A stretch of DNA of 64,000 nt, from the NCBI RefSeq assembly GCF_900156165.1, contig NZ_FTMY01000015.1, positions 1 through 64,000 on the forward strand. Direction: 5' to 3'. Under the pieces are notes generated by a model, which did no database searches, was not told the origin of the DNA, and saw only the letters and a list, made by a program, of their open reading frames with translations. This document shows positions 27,430-46,591 of this stretch, in pieces; position 1 is the first letter of the stretch, and every line of letters starts with the position of its first letter. The translations under genes were made by a program, and so were the position numbers. The DNA comes from Pseudacidovorax sp. RU35E (lineage in GTDB: Bacteria; Pseudomonadota; Gammaproteobacteria; Burkholderiales; Burkholderiaceae_C).

Positions 27430-30400
27430 ATGGACATGAACCGCCGCCATTTCTTCCGCGTCAGCGGTGCCGGCCTGGTCGGCTCCAGCCTGGTGGCCCT
27501 GGGCTTCTCGCCCACCGCCGCACTGGCCGAGACCCGCCAGTTCAAGCTGGCCCGTACCACCGAGACGCGCCAGACCTGCACCTACTGCTCCGTGGGCTGC
27601 GGCCTGCTGATGTACAGCCTGGGTGACAAGGCCAAAAACGTGAAGGCCTCCATCCTTCACATCGAAGGCGACCCGGACCATCCCGTCAACCGCGGCACGC
27701 TGTGCCCCAAGGGTGCCGGCCTGCTCGACTTCGTGCACAGCCCCAACCGGCTGAAGTACCCCGAGGTGCGCGAGCCCGGCAGCACCGAGTGGAAGCGCGT
27801 GAGCTGGGAAGAAGCCTTCAGCCGCATCACGCAACTGCTCAAGGCCGACCGCGACGCCAACTTCCAGGCCACCAATGCCGCAGGGCAGGTGGTCAACCGC
27901 TGGACCTCGTCGGGCATGCTGTGTGCCTCGGCCTCCTCCAACGAAACCGGCTATCTCACGCACAAGGCATTCCGCTCGCTCGGAATGCTCGTCTTCGACA
28001 ACCAGGCCCGCGTTTGACACGGACCGACGGTGGCCAGTCTGGCCCCGACGTTCGGCCGCGGTGCGATGACCAACCATTGGCAGGACATCCAGAACGCTGA
28101 TCTGGTCCTGATCATGGGCGGCAATGCCGCAGAAGCGCATCCGTGCGGCTTCAAGTGGGTCATCGAGGCCAAGAAGCACAACAAGGCACGCCTCGTCGTG
28201 GTGGACCCGCGCTTCACGCGCTCGGCTGCCGTGGCGGACTATTACGCGCCCATCCGCGCCGGCTCCGACATCGCCTTCCTGGGCGGCGTCGTGCACTACC
28301 TGCTGAGCCAGGACAAGATCCAGACCGAGTACGTCCGCAACTACACCAACGCCCCCTTCATCGTGGGCCCGGACTACAAGTTCGAGGATGGGCTGTTCAG
28401 CGGCTACAACGCCGAGAAGCGCAGCTACGACAACAAGAGCTGGGGCTACGCGCTCGACGAGCAGGGCCATGCGAAGGTCGACATGACCATGCAGGACCCG
28501 AACTGCGTGCTGCAGGTCATGAAGCGCCATTACGCGCGCTACACGCCCGAGATGGTCAGCCGCATCACGGGCACGCCCCAGGACAAGTTCCTGAAGGTCT
28601 GCGAGTACATCGCCAGCACCAGCGTGCCCGGTCGCACCATGACCATCATGTATGCGCTGGGCTGGACGCAGCACAGCCAGGGCTCGCAGATCATCCGCAC
28701 CGGCGCCATCGTCCAGCTGCTGCTGGGCAACATCGGCGCACCCGGCGGCGGCATGAACGCGCTGCGCGGCCACAGCAATATCCAGGGCCTGACGGACCTG
28801 GGCCTGCTGTCGAACTCGCTGCCCGGCTACCTCTCGCTCGCACGCGACACCGAGCAGACGCTGGACGACTACTACAAGCCCCGCGCCCTCAAGCCGCTGC
28901 GTCCCAACCAGATGAGCTACTGGCAGAACTACCCCAAGTTCTTCGTCAGCATGCAGAAGGCCTGGTTCGGCAAGGCGGCGACGGCCGAGAACGACTGGGC
29001 CTTCCACTACCTGCCCAAGATCGACAAGCTCTACGACGTGCTCCAGGCCTTCGAACTGATGGACCAGGGCAAGCTCAACGGCTACATCTGCCAGGGCTTC
29101 AACCCTGTCGGCTCGTTCCCGGACAAGCACAAGATCGTGCGCAGCCTGTCCAAGCTCAAGTTCCTGGTCACCATCGACCCGTTGATGACCGAGACCAGCG
29201 AGTTCTGGCGCAATTTCGGCGAGCACAACGACGTCGATCCCAAGCAGATCCAGACCACGGTGTTCCGCCTGCCCTCCACCTGCTTCGCGGAGGAGAACGG
29301 CTCGGTCACCAACTCCAGCCGCTGGTTGCAGTGGCACTGGAAGGGCGCCGAGCCGCCGGGCGAGGCGCTGGCCGACACCGAGATCGTGGGCCAGCTGTTC
29401 ACGCGGCTGCGCGCGGCCTACGCCAAGGACGGCGGCGCCTTCCCCGACCCGATCGTCAACCTGGCCTGGAACTACAAGATTCCGACCTCGCCCGCTCCCG
29501 AGGAGCTGGCGATGGAATACAACGGCAAGGCGCTGAGCGACCTGACGGATCCGAAGGACCCGACCAAGGTGCTGGCCAAGGCCGGCGAGCAGCTGGCCGG
29601 CTTCGGTCTGCTGCGCGACGACGGCTCCACCGCCAGCGGCTGCTGGATCTATGCCGGCGCCTGGACCCAGGCTGGCAACCAGATGGCGCGCCGCGGCAAT
29701 GCCGACCCCTACGGCATCGGCATGGTGCAGGACTGGGCCTGGGCCTGGCCGGCCAACCGGCGCATCCTGTACAACGCCGCCTCCACCGACCCCAAGACCG
29801 GCAAGCCCTGGATCTCCAGGCGCCCGCTGGTGTTCTGGGACGGCGCCAAGTGGACGGGCCCGGACGTGCCGGACATCCGCCCCGACGCCAACCCGGCCGA
29901 CCCGGACGCGGTGCGTCCCTTCATCATGACCGCCGAGGGCGTGGCGCGCCTGTTCGCGCCCACGGGCATGGCCGAAGGGCCGCTGCCCGAGCACTACGAG
30001 CCCTTCGAGTCGCCGCTGGAGAACAACCCGCTGCACCCCAACAACAAGGTGGCGCGGGCCAACCCGGCAGCGCGCATCTTCAAGGGCGACCTGGAGCGCC
30101 TGGGCGTGCCCAAGGACTTCCCGTATGTGGCGACCAGCTACCGCTTGACGGAGCACTTCCACTACTGGACGAAGAACGTGATGACCTCGGCCATCATCCA
30201 GCCGCAGCAGTTCGTGGAGATCAGCGATGTGCTGGCGAAGGAAAAGGGCATCGCCAATGGCGACTGGGTCAAGGTGTCGAGCAAGCGCGGCTACATCAAG
30301 GCCGTCGCGCTGGTCTCCAAGCGCATCTCGGTGCTGCAGGTGGACGGCAAGACGGTGCACACCGTCGGGCTGCCGAACCACTGGGGATTCGTGGGCGTGG

Positions 30401-30504
30401 CCAAGCCGGGTTACCTGGTGAACACGCTCACGCCGTTCGTGGGGGATGCGAACACGCAGACGCCCGAATACAAGTCCTTCACCGTGAACATCGAGAAAGC
30501 CTAG
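27430..30504 (+). CDS. fdnG: Respiratory formate dehydrogenase catalytic subunit, selenoprotein (UGA = Sec196)
   Basis: Periplasmic molybdenum/tungsten bis-MGD subunit oxidising formate to CO2. The 1024-residue product begins with a Tat signal '[13 protein letters not shown]' and has one [4Fe-4S] site (C-x2-C-x3-C from 'CTYCSVGCG', fourth Cys in 'LCPKG'). The frame is interrupted only by TGA at 28015-28017, and the flanks 'NQARV' and '[20 protein letters not shown]' match the Sec site of E. coli FdnG, also residue 196. A SECIS hairpin follows (28028-28047). AGGAGG at 27417-27422 gives a strong start. fdnH and fdnI follow with 2-bp and overlapping junctions. All Sec-decoding genes lie downstream. 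Confidence 0.97.
28015..28047 (+). promoter_or_regulatory. Bacterial SECIS element with the recoded UGA codon
   Basis: Ten nucleotides after the UGA (28015-28017) comes a hairpin: CGG (28028-28030), a single bulged U (28031), GGCC (28032-28035), loop AGUCU (28036-28040), GGCC (28041-28044), CCG (28045-28047). All seven base pairs are Watson-Crick. The bulged U and the GU in the loop are the two features SelB is known to recognise in E. coli fdhF mRNA. This directs Sec insertion rather than termination. Confidence 0.93.
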
Positions 30505-30506
30505 CC

Positions 30507-31460
30507 ATGTCCTCCCTGCAATCTCTGGACATCGCCAAGCGCTCGGCCACCACGGTGCAGCCGCCGGTGGTGCGCCACCAGCCGCAGGTGCAGCCCGTTG
30601 CCAAGCTGATCGACGTGTCGGCCTGCATCGGCTGCAAGGCCTGCCAGGTGGCCTGCATGCAGTGGAACGACCTGCGTGACGAGGTCGGCACCACTCATGG
30701 CACCTACGACAACCCGATGGACCTCTCGCCGGCCTCCTGGACGGTGATGCGCTTCTCGGAAGTCGAGCCCGAAGAGGGCAAGCTCGAGTGGCTGATCCGC
30801 AAGGACGGCTGCATGCACTGCGAGGACCCGGGCTGCCTCAAGGCCTGCCCGGCGCCCGGCGCCATCGTCAAGTACACCAACGGCATCGTCGACTTCATCA
30901 GCGAGCATTGCGTGGGCTGCGGCAACTGCGTCACGGGCTGCCCCTTCAATGTGCCGCGCATCAACAAGGCGGACAACCGGGCCTACAAGTGCTCGCTGTG
31001 CTCCGACCGCGTGGGCGTGGGCCTGGAGCCGGCCTGCGCCAAGGTCTGTCCCACCGGAGCCATCCAGTTCGGCACCAAGGAGGACATGCACGAGTACGCC
31101 GCCGAGCGCCTCGTCGACCTCAAGGAGCGCGGCTATGCCAACGCCGGCGTCTACGACCCGCAGGGCGTGGGCGGCACGCACGTCATGTACGTGCTGCAGC
31201 ATGCCGACCGGCCCGAGCTCTACCATGGCCTGCCCAAGAACCCGACGATCAGCCCGCTGGTCTCGCTCTGGAAGGGCATCGCCAAGCCGCTGGGCCTGCT
31301 GGCCATGGCGGGCGCGGTGATCGGTGGCTTCTTCCACTACATGAAGGTCGGGCCCGTCGAGGCCAAGGACGACAAGGACGCCGATGGCGTCGCCGATGAC
31401 CACGAGGTGGTCGTCATCGAGAAGCCCGCCGCAGACCGTCGCGAAGGAGCCCCGTCATGA
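30507..31460 (+). CDS. fdnH: Formate dehydrogenase iron-sulfur subunit
   Basis: Electron-transfer subunit of 317 residues with four ferredoxin-like [4Fe-4S] sites: '[11 protein letters not shown]', '[14 protein letters not shown]', '[12 protein letters not shown]' and 'CSLCSDR' with 'CAKVCP'. One C-terminal transmembrane helix (about 262-285, '[14 protein letters not shown]') anchors it at the periplasmic face. It lacks its own signal and is expected to be co-exported with FdnG. The tail after the helix is longer and more acidic than in E. coli. It starts 2 bp after the fdnG stop. Confidence 0.96.
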
Positions 31461-32080
31461 GCCGTGTCTACCTGCGCCGCTACAAGGACGGCACGCGGAT
31501 GAACCACTGGTTCATCGTCCTCATGTTCTTCTGCGCCGCCCTCTCGGGCCTGGCCTTCTTCCACCCGGCGCTGTTTCCGCTGACCAACCTCTTCGGCGGC
31601 GGTCAGTGGACGCGCATCCTGCATCCCTTCATGGGCCTGTTGATGGTGCTGGGCTTCGTCTTCATGTTCTTCGGCCTCTGGCGCGAGAACCTGATCGACC
31701 GCAACGACGTCGAATGGATGAAGCGCTCGGGTCAGATGCTGGCCGGCCACAAGGAGCACATGCCGCCGGTGGGCAAGTACAACGCCGGCCAGAAGCTGGT
31801 GTTCTGGGTGATGGCGGTGTCGCTGCTGGTGCTGCTGGCGACGGGCTTCCTGTTCTGGAGCCCGTGGTTCGTGCACTACTTCCCGATCACGCTGCGCCGT
31901 ATCGCCGTGGTGCTGCATGCGGCCTCGGCCGTGTTCCTGGTGCTGTCGGTGATCATGCATGTGTACGCCGCCATCTGGGTCAAGGGCACCATGCGCGCCA
32001 TGACGCGCGGCACTGTCACCGAAGGCTGGGCACGGCTCAACCATCCGGTGTGGCACCGCGAGATGACGGGACGCGACTGA
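31457..32080 (+). CDS. fdnI: Formate dehydrogenase cytochrome b556 subunit
   Basis: A 207-residue membrane subunit with four transmembrane helices that carries two b haems and passes electrons to quinone. Candidate haem ligands are His17, His56, His154 and His168, each one position earlier than the ligands known in E. coli FdnI. The ATG overlaps the fdnH stop and GAAGGAG lies upstream. With FdnGH it forms the proton-motive formate:quinone half-loop. Confidence 0.96.
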
Positions 32081-32231
32081 GCACGGTCGCAGCCCTCGCG
32101 CGCCGGTCCGGCGCGCACCCTCCGCCCCACGGCGCCGCATCCGGGCCGTGGGGTTCGTTCTTTTGCAACGCCCGCCCCGGGATACCCCTGGCATGCGCCC
32201 TGACACGGCCATGCTCTAGCATTCGCCCCCG

Positions 32232-33290
32232 ATGACCGAACCCAGCAACCCCGCCGCCTTCTTCGCTAGCACGCGGGTGCTCGAGCCCGAGCAGATCGCG
32301 ATGCAGGCCGGCCAGCGGGTGCCCTTCCTGCGGCTGCCGCAGCGCGCCACCGTGTTCGCCGACCGCGGCCTGCGCCTTCGCCAACTGGCCGCCGGCCATC
32401 CGATGCGCGACTACCTGCTCTTCGTGGCCGACATCGCGCAGGCCCAGCACGAGGCGCTGCAGCACCATCCCGACGTGAAGCTGCCCGACCTGGCCGCCAT
32501 CGAGGCCGCCTCGCAGGCACTCAGGCCGCCGCTGCCCGCCGACCTGTGGCCGCGCGACCCGGCCTGGCGCGCCGTGCTGCGGCAGGTGCTGGGGCCGCTG
32601 CGGGATCGACTGCCCGAAGGCCCCGCGCGCGAGACCGTGCAGCGCGTGCTCGACGCCGACAGCGACTGGCTGGAACGCCAGGCCGGCCTGATCACGCAGG
32701 GCATCATGTTCGGCCTGGACCTGGGCACCGCGCCGCTGGTGGCGGCCGGCCTGCAGGCCTACTTCACGCACATGGCCATCGCCACGGCCGAGGAGCACGG
32801 CGCGTTGCGCGCCTTCGGCGTGACCGAGCCGCTGACCCGCTGCCCCTGCTGCGGCAGCGCACCCACCGCCGGCGTCATCCGCATCGGCGCCGACGATGCC
32901 GGCGTGCGCTACCTGCATTGCGCGCTGTGCAGCACCCAGTGGCACTACGTGCGCATCAAGTGCGCCCACTGCGAGAGCACCAAGGGCATCCACTACCAGT
33001 CGCTGGAGCCCGAGGGCGAGGCCGCGCCCGAGCGGCCGGTGGGCCTCAAGCCCGGCGCCGTACGCGCCGAATGCTGCGACGAATGCGGCCACTACCTCAA
33101 GCTCGTGGCCATGGACCGCGACCCCGAGGTCGAGGCCGTGGCCGACGACCTTGCCAGCCTGCCGCTGGACCTGCTGGTGTCCGAGGCCGGCCACCAGCGC
33201 ACAGGCCACAACCTGATGCTGCTCTTCGGCGACCCCGAGCCCGAGGCCGCATCGGCCAATCACCCACCCGACGACGGCGGAGGCGGCTGA
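32232..33290 (+). CDS. fdhE: Formate dehydrogenase accessory protein FdhE
   Basis: A 352-residue rubredoxin-like maturation factor needed for active membrane formate dehydrogenase. It carries four Cys pairs in the C-terminal half ('CPCC', 'CALC', 'CAHC', 'CDEC') that form two iron sites and contact the Tat substrate FdnG. N-terminal 'PFLRLPQRATVFADR' is family-typical. It starts 152 bp after fdnI and its stop overlaps the selA start (TGATG). Confidence 0.95.
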   Translation: MTEPSNPAAFFASTRVLEPEQIAMQAGQRVPFLRLPQRATVFADRGLRLRQLAAGHPMRDYLLFVADIAQAQHEALQHHPDVKLPDLAAIEAASQALRPPLPADLWPRDPAWRAVLRQVLGPLRDRLPEGPARETVQRVLDADSDWLERQAGLITQGIMFGLDLGTAPLVAAGLQAYFTHMAIATAEEHGALRAFGVTEPLTRCPCCGSAPTAGVIRIGADDAGVRYLHCALCSTQWHYVRIKCAHCESTKGIHYQSLEPEGEAAPERPVGLKPGAVRAECCDECGHYLKLVAMDRDPEVEAVADDLASLPLDLLVSEAGHQRTGHNLMLLFGDPEPEAASANHPPDDGGGG

Positions 33291-34738
33291 TGGCCATGCC
33301 CGACGAGTCCGTGGTCCACGGCTCCAAGGCAAGTCCCCAGGATCTGCCCGCCGTCGACCGGCTGCTGCGTGCCCCGGACACGCAATCCCTGATCGCCGCC
33401 CACGGCCACACGCTGGTGGCCGGCGAGGCGCGCGCCCTGCTCGATGCGTTGCGCCCGCGCGCCGTCGCCGGCCATTTGCCCCTCACCGACGTGCAGCCTG
33501 CGGCACTGCAGGCCGCACTGCTGAAGCGCCTGCAGGCCCGCCTGTCGCCGCGCATGCAGCGGGTCCTTAACCTCACCGGCACGGTGATCCACACCAACCT
33601 GGGCCGCGCGCTGCTGGCCGACGAGGCGCTGGCCCATCTGCTGCGGCTGATGGCCGGCCCCAACAACCTCGAATACGACCTGGCCACCGGCGGCCGCGGC
33701 GACCGCGACACGGTGGTCGAGGAACTGCTGACCACCCTGACCGGCGCCGAGGCCGCCACGGTGGTCAACAACAACGCCGCCGCCGTGCTGCTGACGCTGG
33801 GCGCCCTGGCCCGCGACCGCGAGGTGATCGTCTCGCGTGGCGAGCTGGTGGAGATCGGCGGCGCCTTCCGCATGCCCGACGTCATGGCCTCGGCCGGCGC
33901 GCACATGGTGGAGGTGGGCACCACCAACCGCACCCATCCGCGCGACTACGAGCAGGCCATCACCGAACGCACCGCACTGCTCCTCAAGGTGCACACCAGC
34001 AACTACGCGGTGCAGGGCTTCACCTCCGCCGTGGACGAATCGGTGCTGGCCGGCATCGCCCATGCGCGCGGCCTGCCCGTGGCCACCGACCTGGGCAGCG
34101 GCTCGCTGGTGGACCTGGCCGCCTACGGCCTGCCGCGCGAGCCGCTGCCGCAGGAGAAGCTGGCGGCCGGCTGCGACGTGGTCACCTTCTCCGGCGACAA
34201 GCTGTTGGGCGGTCCGCAGGCCGGCCTGATCGTCGGCAGCAAGGAGGCCGTGGGCCGCATCCGCAAGTTCCCGATGAAGCGCGCCCTGCGCATGAGCAAG
34301 CTGCCGCTGGCCGCGCTGGAGGCCACGCTGATGCTCTACCTGCGCCCCGAGCGCCTGGCGCAGGACCTGCCCACGCTGCGGCTGCTGACGCGCCCGCTGG
34401 AAGCCATCCAGGCCACCGCCCGCGCCGTGCACGGCCCGCTGGCCGAAGCCGTGGCGCCGCGCTTCACGGTGGAAACCGTGGCGCTGCAGGGCCAGATCGG
34501 CAGCGGCTCGCTGCCGGTGGAGCGCCTGCCCTCCGCGGGCCTCGCACTCGCGCCAGCAGGCATCGCCAAGAAGGGCACCGGCCGCGCCCTCGACCAGCTC
34601 GCCCAAGCCCTGCGCCAGTTGCCCCTGCCCGTCATCGGCCGCATCGCCGACGACCGCCTGCTGCTGGACCTGCGCTGCCTGGAAGACGCCACCGACCTGC
34701 TCGGCCAGCTGCCGAGCCTGCGCGAGCGCCTCGCATGA
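33290..34738 (+). CDS. selA: L-seryl-tRNA(Sec) selenium transferase
   Basis: Converts Ser-tRNA(Sec) to Sec-tRNA(Sec) using selenophosphate. The 482-residue product is a fold type I PLP enzyme with the PLP lysine in '[13 protein letters not shown]'. Other family motifs are '[17 protein letters not shown]'-like '[18 protein letters not shown]' and '[10 protein letters not shown]'. The ATG at 33290 overlaps the fdhE stop; a second Met lies two codons on. The gene overlaps selB by 4 bp. Length matches E. coli SelA (463) plus a short tail. Confidence 0.97.
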
Positions 34739-36645
34739 TCATCGGCACAGCGGGCCACATCGACCACGGCAAGACCACGCTGGTGCGTGCCTTGACCGGG
34801 GTGGACACCGACCGCCTGCCGGAGGAAAAGCGCCGCGGCATCTCCATCGAGCTGGGCTATGCCTACCTGCAGGCCGGTGACATCTCCCTGGGCTTCGTCG
34901 ACGTGCCCGGCCACGAGCGCCTGCTGCACACCATGCTGGCCGGCGCCACCGGCATCGACCATGCGCTGCTGGTGGTGGCCGCCGACGACGGCGTGATGCC
35001 GCAGACGCGCGAGCACCTGGCCGTGGTCGCGCTGCTGGGCCTGGACCGCGGCAGCGTGGCCCTGACCAAGATCGACCGCATCGATACCGCCGAGCGCACG
35101 GCCCGCATCGCCCAGCTGCGCACCGAGATCGCCGACCTGCTGGCGGGCACGCCGCTGGCGGCTTCACCGCTGTTCCCGGTCTCGGCCCAGACCGGCGAAG
35201 GGCTGGAGCCGCTGCGCCAGCACCTGCTGCAAGCCGCGGGTGAAGTGCGCGGCCACGACGACGCGCTGGCCTTCCGCCTGGCGACCGACCGCGCCTTCAC
35301 GCTGGCCGGCGTCGGCACCGTGGCCACCGGCACCGTGCATGCCGGCACCGCCCGCATCGGCGACGAACTGCGGCTGGTGCCCGGCGAGCGCAGCGCGCGC
35401 CTGCGCGGCATCCATGCGCAGAACCTGCCGGCTGACGAGGCCCGCGCCGGCCAGCGCTGCGCCCTGGCCCTGGCCGGCCTGGCGAAAGAGGAGGTTCGCC
35501 GCGGCGACTGGCTGTGCGACCCAGCCATCGCGCTCGCCACGACGCGCCTGGACGTGCAGCTCACGCTGTGGCCCGGCGAGGCCCACACGCTGCGCTCGGG
35601 CACACCCGTGCATGTGCACCTGGGCGCCAGCGACGTGATGGCCTCCATCGCGCTGCTCGACCGCGACGGCCTGGCGCCCGGCGACACCGCCCTGGCCCAG
35701 CTGGTGCTGCGCGAGCCCGTCGCCGCCTGGCACGGCGACCGCGGCGTGCTGCGCGATGCCAGCGCCACACGCACCGTGGCCGGCGTGCGCGTGCTCGACC
35801 CCTTCGCGCCCGTGCGCTACCGCCGTACGCCGCAACGCCTGGCCGAACTGGCGGCCTGGGCCCTGCCCGAGCGCGCCGCCTTGATCGACGGCCTGCTGCA
35901 GGCGGCCCCGCTGGGCATGGACGCCGCCCGGCTGGCCCGCGCCCTGGCCCTGCCCGGCCCCGACGCGCTGGCGCCCTTGCCCGCCGATGCGCTGCGCATC
36001 GACGGCATGCTGATCGCCCGCCGCCACCTGGAAGCGCTTCAGGCCCAGGTCATCGAGCGCCTGCGCGCCTTCCACGAGGCCCAGCCGGCGGAGATCGGCC
36101 CCGACGCGCGGCGCCTGCGCCGCCTGGCCGGCCCGCGCACCGACGACGGGCTTTGGCGCGCGCTGGTGGAGGCACTGGTGGCCGATGGCCGCCTGGTCCG
36201 CAGCGCCCACTGGCTGCACCTGCCCGACTATGCCGCCCGCCTCAATGCGGCCGAGGAGAAGCTCGCGCAGCAGCTGCTGCCCAAGCTGGCGGATGGTGGC
36301 TTCGACCCGCCCTGGGTGCGCGACCTCGCCAAGGACCTGGCCGCCAGCGAGGCCATGGTGCGCCAGACGCTGGCCAGCCTGGCCCGTCGTGGCGCGGCCT
36401 TCCAGGTGGTCAAAGACCTGTACTATCCGCTCCCCACCGTCGAGCGGCTGGCCGCACTGGCCCGCGACTGCGTCGACGGCCCGGACGGCCTGCAGGCCGC
36501 CAGCTTCCGCGACGCCACCGGCCTGGGCCGCAAGCGCGCGATCCAGATCCTGGAGTTCTTCGACCGCGTGGGCTACACGCGGCGGGTCAAGGACACGCAC
36601 CTGCTGCGGCCGGACACGGCGATGTTCGGGGGGCGGGGCGCATGA
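34735..36645 (+). CDS. selB: Selenocysteine-specific elongation factor SelB
   Basis: A 636-residue GTPase that carries Sec-tRNA to the ribosome and binds the SECIS. The N-terminal EF-Tu-like domain has '[13 protein letters not shown]', '[14 protein letters not shown]' and 'LTKID'. It is followed by two beta-barrel domains, and the C-terminal third has tandem winged helices that bind SECIS RNA ('[21 protein letters not shown]' near the end). Its ATG overlaps the selA stop (ATGA), and selC begins 28 bp after the stop, giving a selA-selB-selC operon. Confidence 0.97.
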
Positions 36646-36672
36646 GGGGCCTCGCGCTGGTGCAGATCAACT

Positions 36673-36765
36673 GGAGGGGAAACGTCCCTGGTGGGGCGGC
36701 CGGGCTTCAAACCCGGTGGGTGGCGCCACGCGTCGCTGGGAGGGTTCGACTCCCTCTCCCCTCCG
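36673..36765 (+). tRNA. selC: tRNA-Sec (anticodon UCA)
   Basis: It has the diagnostic bacterial Sec-tRNA shape: an 8-bp acceptor (GGAGGGGA with TCCCCTCC), a 6-bp D-stem (CGTCCC with GGGGCG), anticodon stem CCGGG/CCCGG with loop CTTCAAA and anticodon TCA (36707-36709), a long variable arm, and T-arm GAGGG-TTCGACT-CCCTC. The discriminator is G (36765). The next bases are CCC, not CCA, so the 3' CCA is not encoded here and must be added or repaired, unlike tRNA-Ser at 357-447. It lies 28 bp behind selB. Confidence 0.96.
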
Positions 36766-37013
36766 CCCTTTTGGGGCGCATTGGCCTACTGCGCGACCCG
36801 ATCTCGCACCTGCGATGCTCGCCGTACCCGAGTACGGCTGCGCTTCTCGGCGCGACCTCGGGCCGCTCGCTACGGCCACTGCACCCCAAAAGCTTGAAGG
36901 AATTCCAGGCAGAGGAAGCGCAACCCCGGCCCGCTCGCGACGGCGGCTGCTCCCCGAAAGGCGTAGCGGAAGAACGGCCACGACATGCCTCGCGGCGCTG
37001 GCCCCTCACCCAG

Positions 37014-37034: not shown

Positions 37035-37112
37035 AGCCAAACAGCCGCCGCACCCCAAAGCCGCGCCCATCGGGCAATCCCGAAGGGGAGCCCACCGATC
37101 ACCAGCCCCGGA

Positions 37113-37351
37113 GCCTGGTGCGGGGTGCCCGCGAGTGGCGCCCTCAGGATGCGCCGAGGCGCGCAGCCGGATGAGCGAGGCCCGCGGTCTCCGCGGGCCG
37201 TTCCTTCTGACTCGCGGCATCTGTCTGAGCGGAGCGCGTCAGCGCGCAGCGAGTTATGCCGCGCGCTCATCCGGCGAGCACCGCAGGTTCCGCGAGCGTT
37301 CAGCGAGCGGCGCAGCCTGTGGGCGACGCCCGGGGGTGCCCCGCACCAGGC
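37113..37351. repeat. 239-bp nested imperfect inverted repeat
   Basis: Matched arms nest around one centre: GCCTGGTGCGGGG (37113-37125) with its complement at 37339-37351; GCCGGATGAGCG (37166-37177) with 37264-37275; CGCGGCAT (37213-37220) with 37256-37263. Inside the left half is a separate perfect hairpin, GGCCCGCGG-TCT-CCGCGGGCC (37179-37199). It has no coding capacity and could be a mobile extragenic palindrome or a strong bidirectional terminator. Confidence 0.65.
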
Positions 37352-37418
37352 GGACCTCATCGAACGCGCAGGCCTGACTGACGCCACACCCGCCCGTCAG
37401 CACACACGAGCCAGCTCG

Positions 37419-38489: not shown

Positions 38490-38590
38490 CGCAGTGTTCT
38501 CCTGAGGGCGTTGTAGGGACAAGCGCCGGATTATCGAAGCGCCCCCATTCCTGCCCTTGCCATCCTGTCTTTTCAACGAGGCCAACAACC

Positions 38591-39457
38591 ATGACCTTCT
38601 CCCGCCGCGCCACCCTGGCCGCCCTGCTCGCCACCGCCGCCTTCGGCACGCTTTCGGCCCATGCCCAGACCGGCACCCTGCGCGTGTCCGCCATTCCCGA
38701 CGAGGCGCCCACCGAGCTGCAGCGCAAGTTCGCCCCGCTGGGCGAATACCTCAAGCAGCAGACCGGCATGAACGTGCAGTTCACGCCCGTCACCGACTAT
38801 GCCGCCGTGGTCGAGGGCCTGGCCACCAACAAGATCGACCTGGCCTGGCTGGGCGGCTTCACCTACGTGCAGGCCAAGATCCGCACCAACGGCGGCGCCA
38901 AGCCCATCGTGCAGCGCGCCGAGGACGAGGTGTTCACCAGCAAGTTCATCGTGCCGGCCGACAGCACCGCCAAGACCCTGGCCGACCTCAAGGGCAAGAC
39001 CTTCGCCTTCGGCGCGCCCTCCTCCACCTCTGGCAGCCTGATGCCGCGCTTCTTCCTGCTCAAGGACGGCATCAACCCCGAGAAGGACTTCAAGACCGTC
39101 GCCTACTCAGGCGCGCATGACGCCACCGTGGCCTTCGTGGCCGCAGGCCGCGCCGAGGCCGGCGTGCTCAACGCCTCGGTGTGGGACAAGCTGGTCGAGG
39201 CCAAGAACCCCAACGCCGCCAAGGTGCGCGTGCTGGCCACCACGCCGACGTACTACGACTACAACTGGACGGTGCGTCCCGGCCTGGACCCGGCGCTGAC
39301 CAAGAAGCTCACCGACGCCTTCCTGCAGCTGGACTCGGCCAAGCCCGAGCAGAAGGAAATCATGCAGCTGCAGCGCGCCAGCAAGTTCGTGCCCACGCAG
39401 TCGTCCAACTACGACGGCATCGAGGCCGCCGGCAAGTCGGCCGGACTGATCAAGTAA
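38591..39457 (+). CDS. PhnD-type ABC substrate-binding protein, candidate selenium oxyanion receptor
   Basis: A 288-residue periplasmic receptor with signal 'MTFSRRATLAALLATAAFG' and cleavage after 'SAHAQ'. The mature part is PhnD/SsuA-like: 'LRVSAIPDEAPTELQRKFAP', 'DYAAVVEGLATNKIDLAWLG', 'FGAPSSTSGSLMPR'. PhnD proteins bind oxyanions such as phosphonates, but no phosphonate genes are near; it is divergent from selD, and relatives beside selD have been proposed as selenate or selenite receptors. Substrate is therefore inferred from context. The next three genes supply ATPase and permeases. Confidence 0.85.
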   Translation: MTFSRRATLAALLATAAFGTLSAHAQTGTLRVSAIPDEAPTELQRKFAPLGEYLKQQTGMNVQFTPVTDYAAVVEGLATNKIDLAWLGGFTYVQAKIRTNGGAKPIVQRAEDEVFTSKFIVPADSTAKTLADLKGKTFAFGAPSSTSGSLMPRFFLLKDGINPEKDFKTVAYSGAHDATVAFVAAGRAEAGVLNASVWDKLVEAKNPNAAKVRVLATTPTYYDYNWTVRPGLDPALTKKLTDAFLQLDSAKPEQKEIMQLQRASKFVPTQSSNYDGIEAAGKSAGLIK

Positions 39458-39487
39458 GCCACTTCCCTGTTGCAAGAAAGGCACGGC

Positions 39488-40303
39488 GTGAGCTTTGCAC
39501 TGGAAGGCGTGGGCCTGGTCCATCCCAACGGCCAGCGGGCGCTCGAGGGCGTGACGCTGGCCGCGCGGCCCGGCGAGCGCATCGCCTTCATCGGCCCCTC
39601 GGGCGCCGGCAAGACCACGCTGCTGCGCATCCTGGGCGCGGCGCTGCGGCCGAGCGAGGGCCGGGTCACGCTGCTGGATCAGGCGCCCTGGCAGGCCGAC
39701 GCGCGGCGCCTGCGTGCCTTGCGTGCGCGCATCGGCACCGTGCACCAGCAGCCGCCCATCGCGCCGCGTCTGCGGGCGGTGACCGCCGTGCTCTCGGGCC
39801 GACTGGGGCAATGGTCCACGCTGCGGGCGCTGGGCTCGCTGCTGCGGCCTGGCGACCTGCAGGGCGCGCATGCCGCGCTGGCGCAGGTGGGCATAGAAGA
39901 CCGGCTCTTCGAACGCTGCGACCGGCTCTCCGGTGGGCAGTTCCAGCGCGTGGCCGTGGCGCGCGTGCTCTACCAGCGGCCCGACCTGCTGCTGGCCGAC
40001 GAGCCCGTCTCCGCGCTCGATCCCACGCTGGCCGACACCACGCTGCGCGCACTGGCGGCCCAGAGCGAGGCCACCGGCGCCACGCTCTGCGCCTCGCTGC
40101 ATGCGGTGGACCTGGCGCTGCGCTGGTTTCCGCGCGTGGTCGGGCTGCAGGGCGGGCGTGTGCTGTTCGACCTGCCGGCCGCCGAGGTCACGCCGGAGCG
40201 GCTTTCCGGGCTGTACGCGGCGGAAGGCGGCCTGCGGGCCGCCGACGAGGACACGGCCGTGATGCCGATGGCCACGGCCTTCATTCCCTCGGGCTGCCGA
40301 TGA
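39488..40303 (+). CDS. ABC transporter ATPase, PhnC type
   Basis: A 271-residue ATPase: Walker A 'GPSGAGKTT', signature '[15 protein letters not shown]', Walker B '[12 protein letters not shown]'. The GTG at 39488 fits the family start '[13 protein letters not shown]' and is preceded by AGAAAGG; a TTG at 39470 in the same frame would add six residues. The stop overlaps the first permease start. Part of the importer whose receptor is divergent from selD. Confidence 0.9.
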
Positions 40304-41160
40304 CGGCTCGCATGGGGACTGTCGCGCGGGCCGCGCCCGATGCACCTCGCCTGCGCGACCCGGCTGCGCGCCGCCGCCTGATCGGCGCGCTGGCGGCGCT
40401 GGCCATCGCCTGGCCGGTGCTGCAGCTGTCCGAGTTCCAGCCCTGGCAACTGCTGACCAGCGGCAACCTGGCCGTCATCGGCGGCTTCCTCGCCGCCTTC
40501 TGGCCGCCCGCGCTGTCGCCCGACTTCCTGGCTCTGCTGGGCCGCGCCACGCTCGAGACGCTGGCCATGGCCACGGCCGGCACCACGCTGGCCTTCGGGA
40601 TCGCGGTGCCGCTGGCCTTCGCCGCCACGCGGGCGCTGTCGGTGTCGCGCCTCGGCCCCGGCCCGGGCCGCTTTCGTGGCGGCCTCGTGCGCCGAGCGGC
40701 GCGGCTGCTGCTGATGGGCCTGCGCGCCATTCCCGAGATCGTGTGGGCGCTGCTCTTCGTGCGGGCCATGGGCCTGGGCCCGGCGGCCGGCGTGCTGGCC
40801 CTGGCCGTCACCTACGGCGGCATGCTGGGCAAGGTGTACGCGGAGATCCTGGAGTCGGTGGACAACCGCCCGGCGCAGGCGCTGCTCGAGTCGGGCAGCA
40901 GCCGCATCGCCGCCCTCGCCTACGGCCTGCTGCCCAACGCGGCGCCGGAGCTGGCCTCGTACACCGTCTACCGCTGGGAATGCGCCGTGCGCGCCTCGGT
41001 GGTCATGGGCTTCGTCGGCGCCGGCGGTCTGGGACAGCTCATGGACCAGTCGATGAAGATGCTCAACGGCGGCGAGGCCTGCAGCATCCTGCTGGTCTTC
41101 CTGGCGCTGGTGCTGCTCGCGGATGCGCTGTCGAATGGGCTTCGGAGGCTGCTGGCATGA
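40300..41160 (+). CDS. ABC transporter permease, PhnE type (first)
   Basis: A 286-residue inner-membrane protein with about six helices. The PhnE-like coupling segment is '[20 protein letters not shown]', followed by '[20 protein letters not shown]', which is typical of PhnE. The ATG overlaps the ATPase stop (ATGA), and its own stop overlaps the next start. Confidence 0.9.
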
Positions 41161-41960
41161 ACGGCAACGTCGCCAAGGCCCTGCCCCCGCGGCCCGCCGC
41201 CTGCTGGCGCTGCCGCGCCGTGCTCGTGGCCGTGCTGGCCGCCATCGTCGCCAGCTTCGCGTGGCTGGGGCTGGACCTGTCGGCGCTGGTCTCGGCCGAG
41301 TCGATGGGCCACATGGGCCGCTTCGTGGCCGAGTTCTTCCCGCCCGACCTGTCGCCCGACTTCCTGGCGCGCACGGCCCAGGGTGCGCTGCAGACCCTGG
41401 CCGTGTCGGCCCTGGGCACCGTGCTGGCCATGGCCGCGGGCGCGGTGCTGGCGCTGCCCGCTTCGGGCCGCGCGGGCTGGCCGGCGCAGCAGGCCGCGCG
41501 CTTCGTGCTCAACCTGCTGCGCAGCGTGCCCGAGCTGGTGTGGGCCGCGCTGATGGTGCTGGCCGCCGGCATCGGCCCCTTCGCCGGGGCGCTGGCGCTG
41601 TCGCTGCACACCACCGGCGTGCTGGGCCGGCTCTTCGCCGAGGCGCTGGAGAACGCGCCGCCCGCGCCGGAGCGCGCCCTGCGCGAGGCGGGCGCCGGCC
41701 GCATCGCCGCCTTCGGCTATGCCAGCTTGCCGCTGGTGGCGCCGCAGTGGCTGGCCTACAGCCTCTACCGCTGGGAGATGAACATCCGCATGGCCGCCGT
41801 GCTCGGCTTCGTGGGCGGCGGCGGGCTGGGGCAGATGCTGTACTTCCATCTGTCGATCTTCCAGCAGGCGCAGTCGATGACGGTGCTGCTGGGCATGTTC
41901 GCGCTGGTGGCGCTGGTGGACGGCGCCAGCGGCTGGGTGCGGCGGCGCTGGGGCGCCTGA
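41157..41960 (+). CDS. ABC transporter permease, PhnE type (second)
   Basis: A 267-residue permease related to its upstream neighbour: 'ALREAGAGRIAAFGYASLPL' and 'YRWEMNIRMAAVLGFVGGGG' repeat the coupling and C-terminal signatures. Two distinct PhnE-type permeases suggest a heterodimeric channel. It starts inside the previous stop codon (ATGA). Confidence 0.9.
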   Translation: MNGNVAKALPPRPAACWRCRAVLVAVLAAIVASFAWLGLDLSALVSAESMGHMGRFVAEFFPPDLSPDFLARTAQGALQTLAVSALGTVLAMAAGAVLALPASGRAGWPAQQAARFVLNLLRSVPELVWAALMVLAAGIGPFAGALALSLHTTGVLGRLFAEALENAPPAPERALREAGAGRIAAFGYASLPLVAPQWLAYSLYRWEMNIRMAAVLGFVGGGGLGQMLYFHLSIFQQAQSMTVLLGMFALVALVDGASGWVRRRWGA

Positions 41961-42020
41961 GGCCGCCCGCCCTCGGGCTGCGCAGACGGCGCAGGCCTGC
42001 GCGGCCGGCAAGCGGTCCGT

Positions 42021-43277
42021 TCAGCAGGGCCGTGCGCTGGCCAGCACGGTATGCAGCAGCACGTTGGCGCCTGCCTCGACATGGTGCGGGGCGGCGTCCT
42101 CGATCTCGTTGTGGCTGATCCCGTCCTTGCAGGGAATGAAGATCATGCCGGTGGGTGCACGCCGGGCGGTGTACACCGCATCGTGTCCCGCGCCCGATGT
42201 CATCCGCTGGCAAGGCAGCCCGAGCGTGCGGGCGGACCGTTCGATCAACGCGATGCACGCCCGGTCGAAGGGCTGGGCCGGATAGCTGGACACGGGCGTG
42301 AGCGCCACCTGCAGTCCACTGGCCCGGGCCAACCGATCGGCCGCCTCCTGCAGTGCACGCGCCATGTCGTCGAGCACCGCATCGTCGTCGTTGCGCAGGT
42401 CCACCGAGAAGGTGACGCGGCCCGGGATCACGTTGCGACTGTTGGGAAAGACCTGGACCATGCCCACCGTGCCCCGCCCCTGCGGCGGATGGCGATGCGC
42501 GATGGCGATCACTTCCTGCATGAGCGCTGAAGCGCCCTGCATCGCGTCGCGCCGCAGGGCCATGGGTGTCGGACCGGCATGGGCCTCCATGCCGGTCACG
42601 GTGCAGTCGAACCAGCGCACGCCCAGCGTGCCGGTGACCACGCCGATGGGCAGGCCGGCCGCTTCGAGCAGGGGGCCCTGCTCGATGTGCACCTCGAAGT
42701 AGGCGCCGATGGGGTGGGCGCGTGGCGGACGCTGCCCCAGGTAGCCGATGCGGGCGAGTTCCTCGCGCACCGTCCGCCCCTCCAGATCACGGGCCGCCCA
42801 CGCGTCCTCCAGCGCGATGGCGCCGGCGAACACGCCCGAGCCCATCATCACCGGCACGAAACGGGAGCCCTCCTCGTTGGTCCAGAACACCACCTCGATC
42901 GGCGCCTCGGTCTGCACGCCGGCGTCGTTCAGCGTCCGCACGACTTCCAGGGCCGCCAGTACACCGTAGTTGCCGTCGAACTTGCCGCCGGTGGGCTGCG
43001 TGTCGATGTGGCTGCCCGCGACCACCGGTGGCAGTGCGGACGCCCGGCCTTGACGCCGCATGAAGACATTGCCGATCTGGTCGACGGTGATGGCCAGCCC
43101 TGCCTCGCGGCCCCACTGCACCACGAGGTCGCGGCCCTGCCGGTCCAGGTCGGTCAGTGCCAGTCGCGCCACGCCGCCGCGGGGCGTGGCACCGACACGC
43201 GCGAGCGTCATGAGGCTGTCCCACAGACGGGCGCCGTCGACGTGCAGGTCGCGGGCATCGGAAGAAGATGCAGTCAT
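42021..43277 (-). CDS. Zn-dependent hydrolase, hydantoinase/carbamoylase family (M20)
   Basis: A 418-residue member of the allantoate amidohydrolase/N-carbamoyl-amino-acid hydrolase/ureidopropionase family, which splits N-carbamoyl compounds. Dinuclear metal ligands are visible in 'GSHIDTQPTGGKFDGNYGV', 'WTNEEGSRF' and 'EVHIEQGP'; 'GMEAHAGPTPM' and 'HDAVYTA' complete the set, and 'SHNEIEDA' carries the late His. Specificity cannot be told from motifs. The ATG at 43277 follows a long open frame that is not conserved. It is divergent from the FAD gene. Confidence 0.92.
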   Translation of the reverse strand: MTASSSDARDLHVDGARLWDSLMTLARVGATPRGGVARLALTDLDRQGRDLVVQWGREAGLAITVDQIGNVFMRRQGRASALPPVVAGSHIDTQPTGGKFDGNYGVLAALEVVRTLNDAGVQTEAPIEVVFWTNEEGSRFVPVMMGSGVFAGAIALEDAWAARDLEGRTVREELARIGYLGQRPPRAHPIGAYFEVHIEQGPLLEAAGLPIGVVTGTLGVRWFDCTVTGMEAHAGPTPMALRRDAMQGASALMQEVIAIAHRHPPQGRGTVGMVQVFPNSRNVIPGRVTFSVDLRNDDDAVLDDMARALQEAADRLARASGLQVALTPVSSYPAQPFDRACIALIERSARTLGLPCQRMTSGAGHDAVYTARRAPTGMIFIPCKDGISHNEIEDAAPHHVEAGANVLLHTVLASARPC

Positions 43278-43413
43278 GGGCCCAGTGTGGCCGCCGGCCC
43301 GACGCGGCGAAATGGGCCGGATGGTCCATTGGCAGGGGCTGTTCTGCCCGGCCAGACTCCACCGCGCCAAGGCCGTCGTCGATGGCCAGCGACAAGAGAA
43401 GGAGTGCGGACCG

Positions 43414-44751
43414 ATGCGGGTGATCGTGGTGGGCGGCGGCATTGCCGGCCTGGGTGCAGCCTGGCGGCTGCGGGAGGCGGGCCACGAGGTGGTGCTGCTG
43501 GAGAAGGACGCCGAACCCGGCGGCCGGTGCCGGTCGGTCCAGTGGAACGGCCTCTGGGCCGTGACCGGGGCCTTTGCCTTCCTGGGGTCCGAAGACAACC
43601 TGATCGAGCAGGCCCGCAAGCTGGGCATCCACACCCCCCAGGAAGTGGTCGACCTGACCGCCGCGCATCGATGGGAGGTGCTGGTGCGCCGCAGCAGAAC
43701 GGTGGACTTCGGCGCCTTCGACCTCAAGTCCGCCGCACTGCACAGATTCATTCCGATGGCCGAGAAGCTGCGCCTGCTCGCCGCCCTTCCCGCGCTGGCG
43801 GCGCGGATGCGCGGCGCGGACCCTCGCGACCTCACGAGCCTGTCCGCCCTGGACGACGTGGGCGCGTGCGACTATTTCCGGCGGCTCTCGCCCACGCTGG
43901 CGGACTACTTCCTGGAACCGAGCATGGGCATGTTCTGCGGCTACGGAGAAGACGACTTCTCGCTTGCCTGGACCGCCTGGAGTTCAGCGGGACGACTGTC
44001 ATGGGCGACGCGGTCGATGTGGAGCTTCAAGACCCGAGGCGCCGGCCAGTTGACCTGGGCGCTTGGGCGAAATTTCGAACAGGACCCCGGCACCGACTAC
44101 CGGCTCGACCGCGCCGTACAGGCGGTGCATGTGGACCGCGACGGCGTGCGGGTCGAGGCCACCGGCCCCGAAGGCGACGAAGTGCATGCAGGTGACGCCG
44201 TGATCATGGCCGTACCCGGCCATCGTGTCGCGCCGCTGATGCCAGGGCTGGACGCAGCGCGCCGCAGCTTCTTCGGCGGCATCGACTACGCAGGCCACCA
44301 CATCTTCTACTACCTGCTCGACCGACCGAAGGGCGCGTTGCCGGACACACGCGTCCTGCCCGCCGCCGATGGCTTCCACCGCACCGGCAACGTGAGATTC
44401 ACCGACCTGGGCGACGGCCGGACCTTCGCCCACTCGCAGTGGAAGGACGCAGGCTGCCGCCGCCACGCGGACGCCAGCGATGAGGAATTGATCGCGCTGG
44501 CCTGGGGCGACGTGACCGAGGTGGTGCCCGAGCTGGCTGGCAGTCAACCCTCGGACAGCTTCGTCTCGCGCCAACCCGCGGCCATCTGCAAGCGGCCGGT
44601 GGGCTTCGTCCGCCGGCTCAAGGCCTTCCGGGCTCTAAGGCCCCTGCCCCGCGTTGCATTCTGTGGTGACTACCTGTCGAACAGCACCGTCGGTCAGTCG
44701 CACTGGTCGGGCCTGATGGCCGCGCAGGCGCTGATCGCGGGCGTCCGCTGA
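43414..44751 (+). CDS. FAD-dependent amine oxidase/protoporphyrinogen-oxidase-like flavoprotein
   Basis: A 445-residue flavoprotein with the N-terminal dinucleotide motif 'VVGGGIAGLGAAWRL', followed by 'EKDAEPGGRCRS', and a C-terminal FAD motif region 'VAFCGDYLSNSTVGQSHWSG'. It is of the HemY/amine-oxidase/phytoene-desaturase superfamily; the substrate is not deducible. AAGGAG 9 bp before the ATG. Its 3' end overlaps the convergent LuxR gene by 58 bp. Confidence 0.87.
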   Translation: MRVIVVGGGIAGLGAAWRLREAGHEVVLLEKDAEPGGRCRSVQWNGLWAVTGAFAFLGSEDNLIEQARKLGIHTPQEVVDLTAAHRWEVLVRRSRTVDFGAFDLKSAALHRFIPMAEKLRLLAALPALAARMRGADPRDLTSLSALDDVGACDYFRRLSPTLADYFLEPSMGMFCGYGEDDFSLAWTAWSSAGRLSWATRSMWSFKTRGAGQLTWALGRNFEQDPGTDYRLDRAVQAVHVDRDGVRVEATGPEGDEVHAGDAVIMAVPGHRVAPLMPGLDAARRSFFGGIDYAGHHIFYYLLDRPKGALPDTRVLPAADGFHRTGNVRFTDLGDGRTFAHSQWKDAGCRRHADASDEELIALAWGDVTEVVPELAGSQPSDSFVSRQPAAICKRPVGFVRRLKAFRALRPLPRVAFCGDYLSNSTVGQSHWSGLMAAQALIAGVR

Positions 44752-45485
44752 GCACCCACGCGCGCCCCCAGTTGGGCGCGCGTGCGGACGTCGAGCTTGC
44801 GGAAGACCGCCGCCAGCTGCTTCTTGACCGTCGACGGGCTGGTGCCCAGCGTCCGGGCGATCTGCTTGGTGCTGTGACCGGCGACCGCCAACTGCGCGAC
44901 CTCGCGTTCGCGCGAACTCAGTCCTGCGAGTGGCGCATCGGCCACCAGCGTCACATCGGCCCGGCCCGCCTGTCCCAGGCGCCAGGCCAGGCCGAGGGCG
45001 GGCGCGAGCAGGGCCGCCGCTTCGCGTTCGCGCGGGCTGAAGTCCTGCGCGGCCATCGGCCGCACGAAGCTGAAGGCGCCCGCCAGTTGCCCTTGATGCC
45101 GGACCGCGACGGTGAGCACCGCGCCCGCTTCGTTGGGAACCAACATGGCCCTGAAGAATGGCGCATTGCGCAGATGAGGCAAGGGCACCAGATCGGTCAA
45201 GCGCACGGCCGCCCCCGCATCGGGACGGTCCAGCCAGGTGCGAATCGGGTCGGTCTGCCTGAAGCGACCGCAGTACTGCGCTTTGCTCCCGCCGCGCCAG
45301 CCGACGAAATGGACTGCGTCGGCAGAGGGATCGACGCGCCCGCCGGGGCGCTCGACGAACACGGCCTTGGTGGCGCCAAAGCCACGCCCGAACACATGCA
45401 TGCCGAAGTGCACGAAGTCCTCCGGCGTGCCCACCCGGGCGATCGGATCGAGCAGCGTGCTCAGGTAGGCAAAGGGCAGGTCCAT
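44694..45485 (-). CDS. LuxR family transcriptional regulator
   Basis: The 263-residue protein has an N-terminal sensory region and a C-terminal LuxR helix-turn-helix: 'LSSREREVAQLAVAGHSTKQ' followed by 'SPSTVKKQLAAVFRKLDV'. The N-terminal part has no receiver or autoinducer motif I recognise. I chose the ATG at 45485; an in-frame TTG at 45530 is less likely. Divergent from mnmH and overlapping the FAD gene tail. Confidence 0.85.
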   Translation of the reverse strand: MDLPFAYLSTLLDPIARVGTPEDFVHFGMHVFGRGFGATKAVFVERPGGRVDPSADAVHFVGWRGGSKAQYCGRFRQTDPIRTWLDRPDAGAAVRLTDLVPLPHLRNAPFFRAMLVPNEAGAVLTVAVRHQGQLAGAFSFVRPMAAQDFSPREREAAALLAPALGLAWRLGQAGRADVTLVADAPLAGLSSREREVAQLAVAGHSTKQIARTLGTSPSTVKKQLAAVFRKLDVRTRAQLGARVGAQRTPAISACAAIRPDQCD

Positions 45486-45538
45486 GGCGCGTCGGTGAGG
45501 CAGGCGGGTGGATGGCCAGTCGGCGGACAATCTTAGCC

Positions 45539-46591
45539 ATGAGCCAGCCCCGCCCCGTCCGCCCGGAAGACCGCCACGCCTTCGACACCTTCATCGACGC
45601 GCGCTCGCCCTCCGAATTCGCGCTGGACCACATTCCCGGCGCCATCAACTGCCCGGTGCTCGACGACGAGGAGCGCCGCATCGTCGGCACGCTCTACCAC
45701 CAGCAGGGCGCCTTCGAGGCCCGCCGCGTGGGTGGTGCGATGGTGGCAGCCAACCTGGCGCGGCACCTGCAAAGCCCCGTGATGGCCGAGCGGCCGATCA
45801 AGTGGCGGCCACTGGTCTACTGCTGGCGCGGCGGCCTGCGAAGCGGCTCGATGGTGCAGTGGATGCGCCTGGTGGGCTGGGACGCGCAGCAGCTGGCCGG
45901 CGGCTACAAGTCCTTCCGCAAGCACGTGGTCACGCAGATCGACCAGCTGGTGCCCGCGATCCAGTTGCGCGTGATCGTCGGCGCCACCGGCAGCGCCAAG
46001 ACCCGCGTGCTGGAGGCCCTGGCCAGACGCGGCGCCCAGGTGCTGGACCTGGAGGCCGCCGCCTGCCACAAGGGCTCGCTGCTGGGCGCCTGGCCCGGCG
46101 TGCCGCAGCCATCGCAGAAGCACTTCGAGACCCGCATCGCCGCCGCGCTGGAGGCCTGCGATCCGGCGCGCCCGCTGTACGTGGAGGGCGAAAGCCCGCG
46201 CATCGGCCGCCTGTCGGTGCCGCAGCCGCTGGTCGAGCGCATGCGTGCCGCCGACTGCATCGAGATCCGCGCCACGCCCGAGGCGCGCCTGGCCTACCTG
46301 CTCACCGACTACGCCTACCTGGGCGACGACCGCGAGGCCCTGGCCGAGCGGCTGGGCGCGCTCAAGGAGATGCAGGGCAAGGAGACGGTGCAGCGCTGGC
46401 AGCAATGGGCCCGCGAGGGCTCGCTGCCGCTGCTGTTCGGCGAGCTGATGGCGCTGCACTACGACCCGCACTACGAGCGCTCGCAGGCGCGGCATTTCCA
46501 TGCGTGGGCGACGCGGCGGCCGGTGGAGGTGTCGGCGCTGGGGCCGCAGGACATCGACGCCGCAGCCGAGGCAGTGCTGGCCCTGGGCTGA
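45539..46591 (+). CDS. mnmH: tRNA 2-selenouridine synthase (MnmH/SelU)
   Basis: Swaps sulfur for selenium at the wobble uridine of some tRNAs, using selenophosphate from SelD. The 350-residue product has an N-terminal rhodanese domain with catalytic Cys95 ('LVYCWRGGLRSGSM') and a P-loop 'GATGSAKT' in the C-terminal part, the standard MnmH layout. It is the second selenium sink in the window beside the Sec pathway. A hairpin (46600-46616) sits right after the stop but lacks a U-tract. Confidence 0.96.
   Translation: MSQPRPVRPEDRHAFDTFIDARSPSEFALDHIPGAINCPVLDDEERRIVGTLYHQQGAFEARRVGGAMVAANLARHLQSPVMAERPIKWRPLVYCWRGGLRSGSMVQWMRLVGWDAQQLAGGYKSFRKHVVTQIDQLVPAIQLRVIVGATGSAKTRVLEALARRGAQVLDLEAAACHKGSLLGAWPGVPQPSQKHFETRIAAALEACDPARPLYVEGESPRIGRLSVPQPLVERMRAADCIEIRATPEARLAYLLTDYAYLGDDREALAERLGALKEMQGKETVQRWQQWAREGSLPLLFGELMALHYDPHYERSQARHFHAWATRRPVEVSALGPQDIDAAAEAVLALG

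Follow-up and report, generated by a model that had tools for sequence, protein, structure and literature searches.

A selenium-use locus of Pseudacidovorax sp. RU35E and its candidate dedicated importer of inorganic selenium

The 64-kb window analysed here (positions 1 to 64,000 of contig NZ_FTMY01000015.1 of Pseudacidovorax sp. RU35E, on contig 24 of a 5.69-Mb genome) carries between positions 27430 and 46591 the genes of a selenocysteine-containing formate dehydrogenase (fdnG, fdhB, fdnI) with its accessory gene fdhE, of selenocysteine (Sec) synthesis and decoding (selA, selB, selC), of selenophosphate synthetase (selD), of an ATP-binding cassette (ABC) importer and of a tRNA 2-selenouridine synthase (mnmH). 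An initial annotation of the window had described this block as a near self-contained, potentially transferable selenium module with a dedicated importer candidate. The locus raises two questions, namely what the importer carries and whether the block is gained and lost as one unit. We consider it probable that the locus holds the only genes for these selenium uses that were found in the genome, that they stand beside a dedicated importer of inorganic selenium, and that the block consists of reshuffling parts rather than one transferable unit. The wider proposal, to which we give an even chance, is that TIGR04553, the family of the importer binding protein, is the missing dedicated bacterial selenium importer, a selenite-specific offshoot of the PhnD/PtxB lineage that would feed SelD for any use, with Glu111 as candidate selectivity residue.

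Co-occurrence of the importer with SelD was surveyed in 150 genomes of the family, 274 of the class and 398 of the phylum, these samples sharing some genomes. The importer was considered as present when a TIGR04553 match exceeded 250 bits; SelD searches of the class and phylum samples used a threshold of E 1e-35, and sub-cut-off homologues were collected at E up to 1e-50 (class) or up to 1e-40 (phylum). In the family sample TIGR04553 was found in 67 genomes, SelD in 135, MnmH in 131 and SelA in 39, and SelD accompanied the importer in 65/67 (p 0.012 by Fisher's test, which here and below ignores relatedness); the two importer genomes without SelD are 85% and 76% complete. When 17 genomes of low completeness or high contamination were set aside, the importer was present in 0/11 genomes without SelD against 58/122 with it (133 genomes, p 0.002). 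SelD was likewise found in 13/13 importer genomes of the class against 62/274 overall (p 1.4e-9), in 10/10 once three same-family genomes were removed (p 1.3e-7), and in 32/34 importer genomes of the phylum against 129/398 overall (p 3.7e-15). Genomes with only lower-scoring homologues had SelD in 0/11 (class) and 2/6 (phylum). Membership of the importer in the Sec trait was tried as an explanation and rejected, SelA being present in 14/67 family genomes with the importer and 25/83 without it; MnmH was present in 64 of the 67. The importer is tied to SelD, not to any single downstream selenium use.

SelD itself occurs in two forms. Many relatives in the family and class surveys have it in an open frame of about 720-900 amino acids that scores about 230-310 bits, suggesting that SelD is fused there, and the importer co-occurs with the long-frame and the ordinary form alike. 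One genome (G116; 620 contigs, 99% complete) has SelA and MnmH above cut-off, and SelD above cut-off was not found in it.

Gene neighbourhoods point the same way as co-occurrence. Among the 65 family genomes with both genes, that of the binding protein lies at most 10 kb from selD in 47, divergently in 45 of these; the two stand on separate contigs in 15 and further apart in 3. The window has the divergent arrangement, with the 101-bp gap that the initial annotation had reported. A special regulator site in this gap was considered and dropped, the common GATTATCGAAGC stretch corresponding, by eye, to a -10-like GATAAT on the selD strand. Outside the family, divergent selD-importer pairs recur in one genus of the same class (L155-L157, a different family; an MnmH match lies behind selD) and, in a different class, at L153.

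Wider linkage was examined in named loci, which are the best 80 of 593 relatives and thus biased to close ones, some genomes being counted twice among the loci (e.g. L019 and L089; L055 and L056). A selenium gene was within reach in 47/80, and in 33/50 of those with full 8-kb flanks. The 47 linked loci comprised 25 with sen genes and SelD, 10 with Sec, selenouridine (SeU) and SelD genes, 5 with SeU genes and SelD, 3 with Sec genes, 2 with sen genes and 2 with SelD (EgtD, SenA and SenB were identified at curated level in locus L026 and elsewhere by similarity to L026). In many relatives selD and the importer have the EgtD, SenA and SenB genes between or around them, and in Polynucleobacter-type loci senA, selD, the importer and mostly egtD (where the stretch reaches) all run in the same direction. 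In one family genome (G036) the order is fdn-fdhE-selA, a 1.5-kb gap, then binding protein-ATPase-permease-permease-selB, so that the importer stands between selA and selB, its final permease overlapping selB by 4 bp (mechanical open reading frame starts); in another (G030) it lies 3' of selB. A tree of 144 binding proteins (124 labelled) required, as a descriptive count, no fewer than 35 changes for its four context labels and no fewer than 18 for linked versus unlinked; it omitted L051, L052, L056, L065-L070, L151 and rows with stops or shorter than 220 amino acids, and 20 truncated loci without a selenium gene carried no label.

The TIGR04553 importer follows selenium across three uses, selenocysteine, selenouridine and selenoneine, and this linkage is the new part. 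The initial annotation had named two uses of selenophosphate, Sec and 2-selenouridine, both represented in the window; selenoneine, the third, encountered among the importer relatives, had not been counted. Its dedicated importer candidate is strengthened by the co-occurrence with SelD and by this recurrent linkage. A tandem pair of binding-protein genes ahead of the same ATPase and permeases was observed in L038 (G058) and L153 (G674).

What the importer binds was approached through its family. The initial annotation had called it PhnD/C/E/E-like; the D-C-E-E gene run is there (38591-41960, one 12-bp gap followed by 4-bp overlaps), but the assignment to PhnD or PhnC does not hold at curated level. 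The binding protein scores 195.2 bits with the PhnD model (TIGR03431, cut-off 261.1); the ATPase likewise stays under the PhnC cut-off, and curated scores do not place the importer among PhnDCEE phosphonate systems. The permeases are split, the first scoring beneath and the second over the PhnE cut-off. The nearest solved relatives by sequence are phosphonate/phosphite ABC binding proteins (7s6g; 5lq5, i.e. Pm_PhnD; PtxB), and pocket positions were inferred by sequence alignment to them. In the passages of PMC5700983 that describe Pm_PhnD, phosphite is contacted by Y46, S126-T127-S128, H158 and D205, with Y206 as cap; the aligned window residues are Y70, S145-T146-S147, H176, D223 and cap Y224, and F90 of Pm_PhnD corresponds to F115. 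Counted without L038 (tandem copies), and with most near rows taken from tblastn and not scored individually by hidden Markov model, Y70, F115, S-T-S, H176 and Y224 are invariant in 120/120 nearer rows and D223 is kept in 95%; the 10 far rows, from 9 genomes, have F115 in 9/10 and the other pocket residues in 10/10. These residues suggest the shape of the ligand, a small pyramidal oxyanion, and not which element it contains. Position 111 is Glu in 98% of near TIGR04553 rows, 10/10 far rows and 0/5 sub-cut-off rows. The five sub-cut-off homologues have Ile or Val there, and the three compared proteins of known structure have Ile.

The names of these solved relatives and the conserved phosphite contacts are what would favour a PhnD/PtxB-type scavenger of phosphite or phosphonate whose place near selenium genes is incidental. 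We regard this as unlikely, given the scores under the PhnD and PhnC cut-offs, the linkage to three separate selenium uses, and the presence of SelD with the importer in the class and phylum surveys as against its scarcity with lower-scoring homologues.

A selenium link is already implied by a database name, since NCBIfam titles TIGR04553 a 'putative selenate ABC transporter'. This curated title is the argument for selenate as substrate, a reading that we find doubtful; the model is of hypothetical kind, and the pocket would seem to suit another shape. Selenite is pyramidal like phosphite, whereas selenate is tetrahedral, and because binding proteins of this sort prefer phosphite, our best guess from the aligned residues is that selenite is the substrate. 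According to the relevant passages of PMC5700983, Pm_PhnD and Te_PtxB, whose contacts match, bind phosphate and phosphonates 2-4 orders of magnitude less well than phosphite. The accession TIGR04553 was not found in the literature searched, nor was experimental proof of TIGR04553 transporter function among the matches listed; in the portions of the literature that use it, 'selenate ABC transporter' is a gene annotation or a name for the E. coli sulfate system.

The second question, that of transfer as one unit, was addressed by comparison with relatives. The best named match to the binding protein (97% protein identity) belongs to a Pseudacidovorax metagenome-assembled genome (L071), whose coding stretches from fdhB to mnmH share about 93-94% nucleotide identity with the window. 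In 10/80 named loci, namely L071 and nine of Variovorax, the importer is flanked by Sec, SeU and SelD genes together. In the 22 Variovorax loci mnmH is in reach in 13, always directly 3' of the last permease (17-212 bp between matches); another 7 have senA, senB and selD instead, one has only selA and selB, and one has none. The initial annotation rightly placed mnmH in the block, yet 3.6 kb (41961-45536) part it from the last permease where L071 has 113 bp. This stretch looks like an insertion in the present lineage, because the 13 Variovorax loci also have mnmH straight after the permease.

A self-contained transferable module is not supported. What the initial annotation had itself named as speaking against its module is seen in the sole same-genus genome of the family sample (G071), where selD and mnmH adjoin at 278 bp, selA is 38 kb off and TIGR04553 gave no hit above cut-off. 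All four markers (binding protein, selA, selD, mnmH) were within 20 kb in 2/150 family genomes (G000 and the Aquincola genome G078). Identity to the window is higher for G078 than for G071 in fdnG (84 vs 65%), SelD (75 vs 63%) and FdnI (75 vs 50%), and reversed in mnmH (37 vs 69%); collinear genes unrelated to selenium had median identities of 67.7% (10 genes, G071) and 49.5% (17 genes, G078), an underpowered comparison in which paralogues are likely included. The identities of fdnG, SelD, FdnI and mnmH point to piecewise exchange, not to one unit. The divergent MnmH of G078 is encoded at 3400-4476 of the Aquincola-type locus L019, in the same neighbourhood as in the window.

A plasmid collection gave five matches, four of which were inspected; one was a 4.9-Mb record without annotation at the match. 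On plasmid pSna507_unt10 of Sphaerotilus sulfidivorans (L227, 303 kb, typed non-mobilizable), mnmH, ATPase, permease, TIGR04553-annotated binding protein and selD stand in a row, and therefore a smaller version of the block can be plasmid-borne. This run, the affinity of fdnG, selD and fdnI to Aquincola, and the importer amid Sec, SeU and SelD genes in L071 and the nine Variovorax loci are what could be expected of a 19-kb mobile selenium island gained and lost as one, which we nevertheless hold to be improbable in view of G071, of the opposite mnmH pattern, of the rarity of the four-marker cluster and of a GC content (0.65-0.75) close to that of the remaining window (0.66-0.75).

An importer of organic selenium (selenoneine, selenosugar or a selenium amino acid), to which the frequent linkage to senA/senB and egtD might point, is very improbable, as the importer also lies beside Sec and SeU genes without sen genes and as its conserved tyrosine cap would, judging from solved relatives, close a small pocket.

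With an inorganic substrate, the parts of the block can be arranged as follows. In the periplasm, the TIGR04553 protein would bind a small oxyanion of selenium, selenite being the likeliest, which the ATPase and its two permeases would then carry into the cell; cellular thiols or reductases, none of which was recognised in the block, would reduce it to selenide for SelD. From family knowledge, SelD makes selenophosphate, which SelA, SelC and SelB would use for selenocysteine at the fdnG UGA, where the selenocysteine insertion sequence (SECIS) was found, and which MnmH would use for 2-selenouridine in tRNA.

Several observations weigh against a dedicated selenium importer. The genome G551 carries a TIGR04553 protein with SelD absent at E 1e-35 and no adjoining ABC partner found, and G666 (78% complete) has TIGR04553 with no SelD found. 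The TIGR04553 cut-off may have been curated with selenium genomes in mind, in which case the co-occurrence would be partly built in. The importer is missing from 70/135 family genomes with SelD and is therefore not essential for selenium use. Since the same pocket residues are present in 5/5 sub-cut-off homologues examined (5 of the 11 found), these residues cannot by themselves separate selenium from phosphorus. No selenium gene was in reach in 33/80 named loci, 17 of them fully flanked; a search of 36 importer loci that lack a selenium gene close by (the flanks of some being short) showed no common selenium-looking neighbour, clusters being judged by eye. On two alphaproteobacterial plasmids the importer has no selenium gene annotated within 8 kb of it. 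Finally, a passage of PMC13077682 interprets the same annotation ('selenate ABC transporter') as selenite efflux.

The features of the block are collected in Table 1. All genes named by the initial annotation were recovered at their positions within about 19 kb, and the selenium role that it gave to every enzyme is supported by the family scores, which exceed the cut-off for fdhB, fdnI, fdhE, selA, selB, selD and mnmH. The genes fdnG-fdhB-fdnI-fdhE-selA-selB-selC run on the forward strand, followed by selD on the reverse strand and then, forward again, by the importer, a gap and mnmH. The close coupling described for selA, selB and selC was confirmed, selA and selB overlapping by 4 bp and selC starting 27 bases past selB. 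The selenocysteine codon of fdnG is an in-frame TGA at 28015-28017 (residue 196), and with SelA, SelB, tRNA-Sec, SelD and this UGA with its SECIS the decoding set is complete in the window. MnmH and SelD, on which the SeU trait is scored, were both found. A check for selenium genes duplicated elsewhere, suggested by the initial annotation, gave one copy each of SelA, SelB, SelD, MnmH and TIGR04553 above cut-off in the host genome; SelA and MnmH had one match in all, SelD and TIGR04553 two additional weaker matches each. One SECIS_3 element, that of fdnG, was above the gathering score in the genome; tRNA-Sec was scanned for in the window.

Table 1. Features of the selenium block, with window positions and supporting evidence
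Feature	Position	Strand	Evidence
fdnG, formate dehydrogenase-N catalytic subunit	27430-30504	+	read-through frame; Molybdopterin and Molydop_binding domains 3' of TGA
SECIS_3 element for fdnG UGA	28012-28070	+	Rfam RF01989, 84.6 bits, gathering 63
fdhB/fdnH, iron-sulfur subunit	30507-31460	+	TIGR01582, 441.5 bits, cut-off 334.7
fdnI, cytochrome b subunit	31457-32080	+	TIGR01583, 182.7 bits, cut-off 115.85
fdhE, formate dehydrogenase accessory protein	32232-33290	+	TIGR01562, 264.9 bits, cut-off 187.65
selA, selenocysteine synthase	33290-34738	+	TIGR00474, 571.5 bits, cut-off 267.9
selB, selenocysteine elongation factor	34735-36645	+	TIGR00475, 459.1 bits, cut-off 242.25
selC, tRNA-Sec, anticodon TCA	36673-36767	+	ARAGORN; Rfam RF01852, 77 bits
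selD, selenophosphate synthetase	37419-38489	-	TIGR00476, 423.7 bits, cut-off 125
divergent intergenic region selD/importer, 101 bp	38490-38590	.	read directly
importer substrate-binding protein, TIGR04553	38591-39457	+	369.7 bits, cut-off 250
importer ATPase, PhnC-like	39470-40303	+	TIGR02315, 206.8 bits, below cut-off 266.1; ABC_tran
importer permease 1, PhnE-like	40300-41160	+	TIGR01097, 210.3 bits, below cut-off 216.7; BPD_transp_1
importer permease 2, PhnE-like	41157-41960	+	TIGR01097, 236.8 bits, above cut-off 216.7
stretch between importer and mnmH: M20 amidohydrolase (-), flavin amine oxidase (+), LuxR-type regulator (-)	41961-45536		Pfam domains; L071 comparison
mnmH/selU, tRNA 2-selenouridine synthase	about 45512-46591	+	TIGR03167, 348.6 bits, cut-off 219.75

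Immediately 3' of selC, a stretch of about 100 bp (36790-36887) has counterparts, 83-90% alike, in L071, G030 and four Variovorax loci, where these too are mostly near selB/selC. The host genome has a second copy (88%) at C23:112135, with no tRNA in the 13 kb examined around it.

All enzymes of the block fall in known families, the sel, fdn and mnmH parts being of familiar kinds; the importer belongs to a family that is named and of putative function. Passages of the reviews PMC9312934 (2022) and PMC13188914 (2026) state that a high-affinity selenium transport system is yet to be identified in prokaryotes, and one in PMC11422209 that no specific selenium importer is known. The survey supplies a named four-gene candidate, a predicted ligand, a candidate residue and many organisms with the importer beside selenium genes. 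Set against such published statements, its value lies in the evidence that TIGR04553 follows SelD across three selenium uses. Should the proposal hold, these bacteria would obtain selenium through a dedicated nutrient pathway rather than solely as a side effect of taking up sulfate or phosphate.

Among known systems, the fdnGHI, selAB, selC, selD and mnmH genes of E. coli encode the same enzymes as the window; we take this set as the point of comparison, relative to which the genes are clustered here and an importer is added. The E. coli control gave a SECIS_3 match and no TIGR04553 match above cut-off. The binding protein of the CysPUWA sulfate/thiosulfate importer belongs to a different family from TIGR04553. 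In the passages concerned of PMC3781023 and PMC11422209, CysPUWA is the ABC importer by which selenate and selenite are known to enter E. coli, and it prefers sulfate (PMC11422209). With the Variovorax selenoneine cluster senA-senB-senC(selD), whose pathway is treated in parts of PMC10891094 and PMC10903977, the resemblance lies in importer relatives that sit within or next to such clusters; unlike it, the 64-kb window gave no match to SenA, SenB or EgtD at E 1e-3 (one query each). Pm_PhnD (5lq5), 7s6g and the Te and Ps PtxB proteins share with the window binding protein the Y, F/Y, S-T-S, H and capping Y positions, and differ from it in that it scores below the PhnD cut-off and has Glu at position 111, where the three solved proteins used for comparison have Ile. 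The closest counterpart is the TIGR04553 family itself, in which the window protein scores above cut-off and whose members share the D-C-E-E partners and accompany SelD; its title says selenate, whereas the ligand predicted here is selenite.

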